Shown here piece by piece: positions 39,259-64,000 of a stretch of 64,000 bases of DNA. The stretch is taken from contig JAHYIV010000007.1 of assembly GCA_019429465.1 (NCBI GenBank), forward strand, positions 50,532 to 114,531, read 5' to 3'. The stretch comes from Desulfoarculaceae bacterium. Its GTDB lineage: Bacteria; Desulfobacterota; Desulfobulbia; Desulfobulbales; Desulfocapsaceae. The position numbers were made by a program, and so were the translations under genes. Position 1 is the first letter of the stretch; every line of letters starts with the position of its first letter. Under the pieces are notes generated by a model. It worked only from the letters and a program-made list of their open reading frames with translations. It searched no databases and was not told where the DNA came from.

Positions 39259-39408
39259 CTCGGAAAATAGTGATGTACCTGCATTGCGACTGGATTTGGG
39301 CCGGATCTGGCTGCCCCGATTGACTAAAACCGCAGATGCAGTTGAGCTCCATCGAGGATTTTGCGATTGAGGTGCGGTCACGGATGGCCCGAAGACCGGA
39401 AGCAAGAT
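39259..39408 (+). repeat. 150-bp direct repeat, copy B
   Basis: Same orientation as copy A; the two copies flank the yjbQ-like gene. Confidence 0.93.
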
Positions 39409-54801: not shown

Positions 54802-54961
54802 TAAGCCGCTGTAAAAAAACAACATGGCCATCTAAGTGCCCGGAGCGGCATAAGGAGCCGGTCGCTCCTACGCCGTCCATGGCGCTCGCGACACTGGGCC
54901 GTCCCTGGCCTGCGTAACGAAATTGAGATAAATGGCCATGTTATTTCGTAACGGCTCCTAA
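54802..54961 (+). mobile_element. 160-bp MITE-like element, copy 1
   Basis: About 96% identical (7 mismatches by eye) to 59002-59161; imperfect terminal inverted repeats around AACATGGCCAT. Confidence 0.85.
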
Positions 54962-59001: not shown

Positions 59002-59161
59002 TAAGCCGCTGTAAAAAAATAACAAGGCCATCTAAGTGCCCGGAGCGGCATAAGGAGCCGGTCGCTCCTACGCCGTCCATGGCACTCGCGACACGGGGCC
59101 ATCCCTGGCCTGCGTAACGAAATAGATATAAATGGCCATGTTATTTCGTAACGGCTCCTAA
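59002..59161 (+). mobile_element. 160-bp MITE-like element, copy 2
   Basis: See copy 1; internal arms CGTAACGAAATA / TATTTCGTAACG. Confidence 0.85.
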
Positions 59162-61319: not shown

Positions 61320-61387
61320 CAGAGCGCCCCTTTTTAGGCAATGGTTTGTAACATCGCGTCCACCACCTGGCGGACCTCACCCAGACA

Positions 61388-61597
61388 TCAACGGCCAGAG
61401 GGATTTATCTCCGCGCAGCGGCAGTGGCCTTCTTTTTTTGCGGCAACAATGCGTTCCATAATCAGCGAGCGGCCGCAGGCCAAGGATGGCCCAGTGTCGC
61501 TCGCTCCTGGGATGGATGAAGAGCGGCCATGACGCAGGACATCCTGGCGCAGATCTTCCTCGGTGTAGCCAAAACAGTAACAGATCAGACGGGACAT
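61388..61597 (-). CDS. BFD/CopZ-N-like [2Fe-2S] small protein carrying an 18-aa in-frame insertion
   Basis: MSRLICYCFGYTEEDLRQDVLRHGRS-[insert]-LIMERIVAAKKEGHCRCAEINPSGR. Confidence 0.75.
   Translation of the reverse strand: MSRLICYCFGYTEEDLRQDVLRHGRSSSIPGASDTGPSLACGRSLIMERIVAAKKEGHCRCAEINPSGR
61475..61520 (-). mobile_element. 46-bp mini-element flanked by 8-bp direct repeats GAGCGGCC
   Basis: GAGCGGCC at 61467-61474 and 61521-61528; element homologous to 62626-62671. Confidence 0.75.
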
Positions 61598-61726: not shown

Positions 61727-62491
61727 CTAAAAAATGTTCATGCGAAAACGAAGCTGCCGATAGCGCAAGACCACACCTTCCCTGAGAATCTTCTCCAGAT
61801 AAAGTTGATTCTCAACCATCTCTCCCTCACGACAGATCCTGTTGTTGATAATAATCATACGCCTGGCACTATCTTCCGAATAGATATGGCCGGCCAGTTT
61901 CAATGGCGGCAGGCCTTCCTGCACACTGGACGGCAAGTCCTGTACAAGGGGAACTGCTTCTGCCATCTCCGAGATATCCTTCTGCGCGACCCTTCGGGGC
62001 ACATCTTCAGGCCTTATCACAGTTTTCTCTTCAGGTACCGACTGTGCATTCTTTGGCGCCAAGCCGTTATCCGCCTCTGCCACCATCACAAACGGCTCCA
62101 GAACAACGTCTTCCTGACGCGCTGGCGGCTGACGAACAGCGACATTCTCATCTGCCTCACCCCTCAACGGTCGCTGAGAAGCTTTTTCCTTGACCGCAGG
62201 TCGATGCGCTACCAGGCCCACAGGCTGCTCCTTTAATTGCACAACACTCTCTTCCAGGGCAGAAATTTTTTCCTGCCAGGCCATATTGTTCCTCTGCGTA
62301 CTCCAGTACAGAGCAAGTGCCGACAAACCCAGCACCACCCCCACAGAAAGCCATATCCGCAAGAGGCTCTTTTTCTTCCCTTCCCCATGACCAGGCCGGT
62401 GTCCATGAACACTTTGCAGATCAGGGATCTCTCCCTGTTTTCTTTCCCGATCAGATTTTTTAAGCGCTTCCAGGATATAGGACATGATCAC
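61727..62491 (-). CDS. GspB-like general secretion / pilus assembly accessory protein
   Basis: MSYILEALKKSDRERKQGEIP; PPLKLAGHIYSEDSARRMIIINNRICREGE. Confidence 0.85.
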   Translation of the reverse strand: MIMSYILEALKKSDRERKQGEIPDLQSVHGHRPGHGEGKKKSLLRIWLSVGVVLGLSALALYWSTQRNNMAWQEKISALEESVVQLKEQPVGLVAHRPAVKEKASQRPLRGEADENVAVRQPPARQEDVVLEPFVMVAEADNGLAPKNAQSVPEEKTVIRPEDVPRRVAQKDISEMAEAVPLVQDLPSSVQEGLPPLKLAGHIYSEDSARRMIIINNRICREGEMVENQLYLEKILREGVVLRYRQLRFRMNIF

Positions 62492-63633
62492 AAACCCTTC
62501 TCTTCTATTTTTCCTTCTTGATCTCTTTTCTGCTTTTTCCGCGTCGCCCGCAAATACTCCGCTTGCTGTGCCGACTCATTCTTTGTCGATACAACCGGGT
62601 GCTGGCCTTGCACCCCTGGTCGCGCTTCATCCATCCCTGGAGCGCTTGACACTGGGCCATCCATGGCCTGCGTCCCGTTTTGCCGATCTGCCAGAGAAAC
62701 AAACTGCCAATGACCATAATAAAGAGATGCGGCCAGCAGACCCAAGATAAGCAGCAGCAGACCCAGGACCACACCGTTGAAGGAGACCCCGCGCATCATG
62801 GCCCCGAGGCCTGAACTCTTTTCAGGCCGCCCCAGCACTTCCCGCACTGCCTGATTGACAATTCTCAGATCAACCTGATCTTTCTCCTCCACATAGGCCC
62901 CAAGCAGGGCCCGATCACACAGGACATTGATCAGCCTGGGAACCCCCCGACTCAGCTCCGCCACCCGCCTGACTGCTGAGTCGGAAAATAATTTTTTCCG
63001 GCCTCCGGCAACGGCCAGACGGTGTTCCACATAGACAGCAACATCCTGTCTGGCCAAGGGCGAGAGGTGATAGCGAGAGGTGATTCTCTGACTGATCTGC
63101 GAGACATCTTCATTGTCAAGAAGCTGTCGTAACTCCGGCTGCCCCAGAAGGATAATTTTCAGTAATTTCTGTTTCTCGGTCTCCAGATTGGTGAGCAGAC
63201 GAAGCTGTTCCAGGGTATCCACACTCAGATTCTGGGCCTCATCGATGAGCAGCGCGGTGATCCTTCCTCGGGCATGGGCGGCAAGCAGATAGCGGTTCAG
63301 ATGATCGATATAGGTCTTGACGCTATTGTGCTCCCCGGTTACGACAATCTCCAGCTCATCACAGATCGATGCCAGCAGCTCGATGGCATTCAACTTCGGA
63401 TTGAGAATCAGGGCCATGTCTGTATTCTCTGGCAGCTGCTCCAGCAGACACCTGCACACCGTGGTCTTGCCGGCGCCCACATCACCTGTCAGCAGGATAA
63501 AACAGCCATCACTGCTTATCCCATAGAGCAGATGGGCAAGGGCCTCCTGATGCAACGCGCTCATGTAGAGATAGCGAGGATCAGGAGCAATTGAGAAGGG
63601 TTTCTCTTTGAGTCCGAAATAATGTGTATACAT
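62488..63633 (-). CDS. ExeA/GspA-like AAA ATPase
   Basis: YFGLKEKPFSIAPDPRYLYMSALHQEALAHLLYG; LTGDVGAGKTTVCR; LLIDEAQNLS. Confidence 0.93.
   Translation of the reverse strand: MYTHYFGLKEKPFSIAPDPRYLYMSALHQEALAHLLYGISSDGCFILLTGDVGAGKTTVCRCLLEQLPENTDMALILNPKLNAIELLASICDELEIVVTGEHNSVKTYIDHLNRYLLAAHARGRITALLIDEAQNLSVDTLEQLRLLTNLETEKQKLLKIILLGQPELRQLLDNEDVSQISQRITSRYHLSPLARQDVAVYVEHRLAVAGGRKKLFSDSAVRRVAELSRGVPRLINVLCDRALLGAYVEEKDQVDLRIVNQAVREVLGRPEKSSGLGAMMRGVSFNGVVLGLLLLILGLLAASLYYGHWQFVSLADRQNGTQAMDGPVSSAPGMDEARPGVQGQHPVVSTKNESAQQAEYLRATRKKQKRDQEGKIEEKGL
62626..62671 (+). mobile_element. 46-bp mini-element, second copy, inside the exeA-like gene
   Basis: 41/46 identical by eye to the 61475-61520 copy; encodes QAMDGPVSSAPGMDE on the minus strand. 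Confidence 0.75.
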
Positions 63634-63831
63634 AACCAGAAAAAAGACAGCAAAAAAGGTCAGGCCTCAAGGGCGGCTTAACTAGAAGTTGATCATGATC
63701 CATGTAAAATGGGGAGCCGGAAATGTTCTATTGTGAAAATCACTATAGGATATATTGGCATCAACTGCCATTTTTTCTTATTTTGCATTGAAATTCTATA
63801 AAAGACTGCTACGATAATAAAATGAAAGATT

Positions 63832-63888
63832 AGTGCCTTACAGATTGTTTTCTTGTTTTTTTTGCAAGAAAACAATCTGTAAGGCACT
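63832..63888 (-). repeat. Dispersed hairpin repeat, copy 4 (reverse orientation)
   Basis: Perfect 24-bp arms AGTGCCTTACAGATTGTTTTCTTG / CAAGAAAACAATCTGTAAGGCACT, 9-nt loop. Confidence 0.95.
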
Positions 63889-64000
63889 GATATGGCTGTT
63901 CTTGTCAACAGGAAAAAGCTATCCTGTTACCCTTGTGTTAAAGGTTTAGCTGTTTTGTATGCATTCCAGATCACAAACAGAGACGGGATCTTGTGGCGAC

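Follow-up and report, generated by a model that had tools for sequence, protein, structure and literature searches.

Repeats that invade open reading frames (ORFs) in frame are best known from Rickettsia and Wolbachia, which are obligate intracellular bacteria. The double-hairpin elements of Allomyces mitochondria are short, GC-rich, hairpin-forming and mobile. Rickettsia palindromic elements (RPEs) and Wolbachia palindromic elements are dispersed non-autonomous hairpin repeats (PMC10969869, PMC3767692, PMC2229807). The Yersinia repeat YPAL/RU-2 has no usual TA ends, makes duplications of 3 to 26 bp and gives in-frame fusions (PMC2229807). Parts of PMC4478555 describe yeast GC clusters as GC-rich, mobile units of ~40-50 bp which have AG or ACT as flanking repeats and merge with one another. 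REPs are largely extragenic, and near a tnpA-REP gene the foot of their hairpin carries the tetranucleotide GT[AG]G; members of the IS200/IS605-REP superfamily bind hairpins in subterminal positions and work through single-stranded DNA circles (PMC6006769).

Here we describe an insert in a CopZ-like gene in a 64,000-nucleotide stretch of DNA (the window) from a bacterium of the sulfur cycle. We consider this insert to be one copy of a mobile, frame-preserving, double-hairpin family which is non-autonomous and restricted to one genus, and we put the probability of this reading at roughly 80%.

The window insert and its host gene

The first-pass annotation had reported an exact 8-bp repeat around 46 bp at 61467-61528, and these coordinates are exact: GAGCGGCC lies at 61467-61474 and an exact second copy at 61521-61528, with a 46-bp spacer. 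It had also read the insert as 18 amino acids added in frame. The minus-strand gene is indeed open throughout and reads HGRS-SSIPGASDTGPSLACGRS-LIMERIVAAKKEG across the insert, with no stop and no frameshift. In the ortholog alignment that the annotation had proposed as a check, the 18 residues were missing from the host-gene orthologs in 13/13 other genomes of the same GTDB genus. The closest orthologs have one copy of the site, with CATGGCCGNTCGCTGAT as its empty form; the net gain is exactly 54 bp. Since the 13 orthologs do not have the 18 residues, the difference is a 54-bp gain in the lineage of this genome and not a loss elsewhere. The flanking 8-bp repeat alone would permit a one-off local duplication or a chance repeat in the CopZ-like gene, but the presence of the 54-mer in about 100 genomic places and its absence from 13/13 orthologs rule this out for practical purposes. 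The positions of the unit, its hairpins and the other features are given in Table 1.

Table 1. Positions of the described features within the window
Feature	Position	Strand	Evidence or remark
54-bp double-hairpin unit, antisense in CopZ-like [2Fe-2S] gene	61474..61527	+	sequence; absent from 13 orthologs
Hairpin 1 of window unit, GGCC-AAGGAT-GGCC	61478..61491	+	fold; covariation across copies
Hairpin 2 of window unit, outer stem GTCGCTC/GAGCGGC	61496..61527	+	fold; covariation across copies
Host gene, CopZ-N-terminal-like [2Fe-2S] protein	61334..61597	-	ortholog frames; weak family/structure matches
Second stand-alone unit, sense, in exeA-like AAA gene (62488-63633, -)	62619..62672	-	encodes QAMDGPVSSAPGMDEARP
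~160-bp MITE-like intergenic element, unit at 59061-59114	59002..59161	-	
~160-bp MITE-like element, second copy, unit at 54861-54914	54802..54961	-	

The host gene has an in-frame TGA at 61388-61390, after which the frame continues to a TAA at 61334-61336. In the orthologs the frame also stays in register beyond the TGA (NPSGR-TGA-CLGQVRQVVDSILRTIA). Among NCBIfam models, those for the (seleno)protein families CopZ N-terminal CC and CU come closest (NF047645/NF045877), both below the cut-off; PDB 2hu9 gives a weak match, and a tRNA-Sec above the Rfam cut-off is present in the same genome. Judged from these sequence features, the CopZ-like protein is probably a selenoprotein in which the TGA is read as selenocysteine.

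The 54-bp family, its settings and its hairpins

The genome-wide search suggested by the first-pass annotation gave a clear answer. A 21-base core of the unit has 100 matches (at most 3 mismatches) in the 2.84-Mb genome, many of them in other genes, compared with 1 for a reversed-pattern control. Four true copies of the core lie in the window, at 54890 (-), 59090 (-), 61478 (+) and 62648 (-), where 0.11 would be expected at the same mismatch limit. Two matches to the CANGGAYG hairpin, at 39379 (+) and 1101 (-), look like chance matches in coding sequence, since the linker and the second hairpin are missing downstream.

The core is present in 16/17 genomes of the genus, and the exception is a 63%-complete assembly. 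A 25-base version (at most 2 mismatches) was found in 10/147 sampled genomes of the order Desulfobulbales, all ten from this genus, with no match in the other sampled genera of the order. The family is restricted to a single genus within the Desulfobulbales. Nearly all named matches are metagenome assemblies of uncultured Desulfobulbaceae or Desulfocapsaceae. The sole match named outside this group, contig JACDZH010000324.1 (locus L080), is labelled Paludibacter sp. ppb03; it is probably a mis-binned contig rather than a transfer, because its bin and a Desulfocapsa bin, ppb01, come from one series. No Rfam family reached the gathering threshold in the window or in four copy-bearing loci, and the plasmid and phage collections gave no match to the element. 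We found no earlier description of it in the open-access literature, which is not proof of absence.

The units occur in two settings. One is a ~160-bp MITE-like carrier, intergenic and with imperfect inverted ends (TTAGGAGCCGTTACGAAATAACATGGCCAT...ATGGCCATGTTATTTTTTTACAGCGGCTTA). Among the fetched loci it gave 47 motif-scan matches, nearly all with the unit at one fixed internal site; the few without it include the empty versions L004 and L050, and L026 has three units. The other setting is the stand-alone unit, which appears as one, two or three head-to-tail copies with a period of exactly 54 bp. Because of this tandem period, the unit is best defined as 54 bp and not as 46 + 8 bp. Units occur in both orientations in the same genome. 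The two settings differ strongly in their relation to genes: 34/44 stand-alone clusters fall within ORFs of 200 amino acids or more, compared with 6/44 MITE-borne ones (Fisher p=2e-9). The hosts of stand-alone units, named from their translations, include murE, hypE, recB, recD, mfd, glnD, purF, ispD, tsaD, moaA, hrpA, rlmL and cobalamin genes, with 15 units in sense and 19 in antisense orientation. The exeA-like unit of the window lies 1.1 kb from the CopZ copy in opposite orientation, and the two form an inverted repeat. Ortholog matches to the exeA-like gene stop near this unit (query residues 308-355 of 381), with a partial alignment to G015. A near-perfect 27-bp palindrome (ATTAGTGCCTTACAGATTGTTTTCTTG...) at 63829-63891 looks like another dispersed intergenic repeat, because very similar palindromes adjoin the MITE-like element in L006, L020, L027, L046 and L047.

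Both RNA and DNA folding gave two hairpins, with modest z-scores. In unit coordinates 0-53, stem 1 pairs 4-7 with 14-17, and hairpin 2 combines an outer stem (22-26/49-53) with an inner one (29-33/40-44). Covariation was scored in 87 distinct stand-alone units, collected with the loops and part of the linker fixed and the stems free. The pair 31-42 is Watson-Crick in 79/87 units, compared with 34.8 expected from the columns (0/1000 shuffles), and stem 1 shows exchanges of G-C to A-T and C-G to G-C (p≤0.001); these counts are not independent events, because the copies share ancestry. Fold and covariation together place subterminal hairpins at both ends of the unit. When the stems and linker were fixed in the search and the loops left free, the loops read ANGGAY in 91/95 and 80/89 cases. 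The loop region of hairpin 2 in the window unit is TGGGAT, differing from this consensus.

An ANGGAX sequence directly on a stem is the high-affinity motif of CsrA/RsmE (PMC4005645), and the ANGGAY hexaloops of the unit have this form. The copies could thus be Csr/Rsm-type RNA elements, kept as regulatory sites or sponges through CsrA binding, and csrA is present in 11/17 genomes of the genus, G016 among them. This explanation is very unlikely. The genome under study (G000, 94.8% complete), which is the richest in copies, gave no csrA, and neither did G005, G008 and G015 (each at least 94% complete). The orientation of units in host genes is also unbiased, and an antisense copy puts no GGA loop in the mRNA. 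The missing csrA and the lack of orientation bias both weaken a Csr role in host transcripts.

A sister double-hairpin family with the same ANGGAY loops, GGCC-ANGGAY-GGCC-TAATNCCGCGGGAGCC-ANGGAYGGC..., is present in 15/17 genomes of the genus; an example copy lies at G001 C137:12049-12124. Its tandem spacing is 51 bp (G001 C137:12049/12100; G009 C68:56744/56795/56846), and this length, like 54 bp, makes up a whole number of codons. The 54-bp unit is found nested in the loop of the sister element, at GGA^YGG, in L066, L073, L082, L094, L099, L100 and L003, of which several are from relatives and one is in the genome under study.

Empty sites, junctions and a possible mode of movement

We aligned the host genes to orthologs from two relatives, and the comparison was clear at about two dozen loci. 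The net difference was exactly 54, 108 or 162 bp at most of them, and at nearly all others it was another multiple of three, as expected for coding sequence. For example, G002 has an empty hypE site (GGGAT CGCCGG ATG), which is occupied in G016 and G012 (GGGAT CGCCGG CC...GAC CGCCGG ATG). In turn, G016 has the empty site (GAACT CGCAGG T) of a methyltransferase-like gene that holds two units in G006.

Genes survive the insertion because 54 bp is 18 codons and most frames are open, five of six in one variant of the unit and six of six in the other. The frames are used very unequally. Among 54 well-defined insertions the ratio is 24:14:11:3:1:1, so that three frames, GRSSSIPGASDTGPS (24), AGQGRPSVAGTMDGAG (14) and QAMDGPVSLAPGMDEERP (11), account for 49/54. 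Those three encode peptides rich in Gly, Ser, Pro and Asp. Peptides expected from inserts include SSIPGASDTGPSLACGR and QAMDGPVSSAPGMDEARP. The Trp-rich frames are nearly unused (1 and 1, one of them a doubtful match). This bias suggests that selection acts on the new peptide once the unit is in place, and the codon phase of CGCNGG may contribute. Purifying selection would then keep only the frames and positions that are tolerated.

The ends of the unit are sharp. At 73 independent junctions the left end is CGCAGGCC and the right end GAGCGAC. Upstream (5') of the left end, the flanking bases are close to random. On the right, C is the first flanking base in 60/73 cases. The right flank reads CGCNGG in 13/73, compared with 0.57 expected from letter shuffles, and this count is an upper bound because some right flanks enter a partial next unit; in 7/73 the right flank is CGCAGGCC and runs into such a partial unit. 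Direct repeats at the junctions range from none or almost none to ~12 bp. The 8-bp target duplication that the first-pass annotation had seen around the insert therefore does not hold as a rule in the junction survey, in which the ends are fixed and the repeats vary, and a constant 8-bp duplication was also rejected by a test at offsets of +/-54n. True short duplications exist in hypE (6 bp, CGCCGG), hrpA (6-7 bp, CGATGA) and ispD (~11 bp). The clearest case is hypE, seen in a pair of genomes that share ~91% identity over the exeA locus. In the window copy the junction match is at the other side, where GAGCGGC matches the right end of the element (consensus GAGCGAC). Because this left GAGCGGC is ancestral target sequence and resembles the right end, a 54-bp insertion that duplicated nothing explains the window copy equally well.

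A classical MITE, moved by a DDE transposase through staggered cuts with a 6-8 bp duplication (ideally CGCNGG) and a core of ~46-48 bp, would explain the exact duplications in hypE (CGCCGG), hrpA (CGATGA) and the window (GAGCGGCC). It would also agree with the likeness of the right 6-mer to the left 6-mer of the same copy, which is 3.04 compared with 2.69 by chance (p<0.0002). However, the unit ends, CGCAGGCC...GAGCGAC, are not inverted copies of each other, and only the ~160-bp carrier has inverted ends, imperfect ones. Many junctions, including those of recB and the window copy, retain the consensus CGCAGG on the left regardless of the right flank, and the duplication differs in length and position among copies. 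We regard this mechanism as rather unlikely.

We tentatively favor another route, at well short of even odds. The unit may move as single-stranded DNA with the help of a Y1 (HUH) transposase of the IS200/IS605-REP superfamily acting in trans, and it may insert beside targets like its own left end (CGCNGG). The hairpins would be kept because this enzyme recognizes them. The proposal fits the fixed ends, the subterminal hairpins, the lack of inverted ends and the variable or missing duplication. It also fits a target resembling the end of the element and tandems at the unit length, since each inserted copy would recreate the target and thereby give head-to-tail arrays. Genes with a Y1_Tnp domain are present in 17/17 genomes of the genus; two of those in G000 lie at C67:5397-5720 and C5:71457-71780. 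On the other side, no unit adjoins any RAYT-like gene examined: 20 Y1_Tnp loci had no unit within ~1 kb, and one locus in G010 had two units ~2 kb away. A search for a transposase gene or a full-length IS with the ends of the element found none. The true duplications in hypE, hrpA and ispD also argue against a pure no-duplication mechanism. Stand-alone units show a weak preference for the strand that is locally richer in G (23:9; p=0.02, with gene direction uncontrolled), compared with 22:20 for MITE-borne ones. This preference might reflect the replication strand; its compatibility with the Y1 single-strand route is only suggestive.

The variable junction repeats, the exact 54n arrays and the targets resembling the unit in murE and the C45 GGDEF gene would also suit a spread by repair, in which hairpin-prone 54-bp monomers or circles join, without an enzyme of their own, through microhomology or template switching. 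This is unlikely in view of the fixed left end and the preferred right flank. Target homology in register with the unit was not significant either (combined z 1.15; 15 loci, orthologs ~80% identical), unlike the larger junction set, which later showed the right-flank motif.

A wider interpretation, doubtful at present, takes the 54-bp and 51-bp families as a class of selfish DNA with whole-codon length and two hairpins, which would travel as hairpinned single strands to targets like its own end and carry Csr-like loops. Within it, the loops would be either a relic of a Csr-type RNA origin or a signal for a protein acting in trans.

Comparison with known systems

Small high-copy palindromes and the Y1 transposases of the genus recall REP, BIME and REPIN sequences with their RAYT genes. 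The stand-alone units differ from these in lying mostly in ORFs, and no unit is found beside tnpA-REP-like genes. Identity with REPs was rejected, as the units have neither the extragenic location nor the flanking RAYT, and the GT[AG]G foot near a tnpA-REP gene does not apply to them either. The IS200/IS605 elements share with the unit the subterminal hairpins; they insert beside a specific target through a single-stranded circular intermediate (PMC6006769), as the unit may do. In this family the target is on the CGCAGG side of the element, and no transposase gene or full IS with these ends was found. When a specific target was looked for, the CGCNGG motif was present, yet some copies have a duplication. 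YPAL/RU-2 is longer (~168 bp) and mainly intergenic. Yeast GC clusters and the Allomyces elements are similar to the 54-bp unit in size and hairpins, as far as the available descriptions go, and are organellar. In the parts of PMC4478555 that deal with them, GC clusters are mostly intergenic, and those parts describe no frame-preserving length rule.

The closest likeness is to RPEs, which the first-pass annotation had named for their logic of invading ORFs. The likeness in lifestyle is supported: like RPEs, the units lie both between genes and, in frame, inside many conserved protein genes, with most stand-alone clusters in ORFs and gaps of 54n against orthologs. Membership in the RPEs is not supported. 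RPEs are ~100-150 bp long and have one long stem-loop with terminal inverted repeats, whereas the unit here has 54 bp and two hairpins. Length and single-stem structure thus set the RPEs apart, and the present family also has tandems of fixed period, a preferred target and a different bacterial phylum. A similar lifestyle with another structure in environmental Desulfobulbales suggests that selfish DNA able to tolerate coding space has evolved convergently. The 54-bp and 51-bp families, the clean empty sites and the housekeeping hosts (murE, tsaD, recB, ispD) are the basis of this suggestion. The 54-bp family is well suited to studying how proteins acquire short peptides. Since seventeen related genomes offer both filled and empty sites, two long-standing questions can be tested directly, the movement of such repeats and the limits on where a protein tolerates them.
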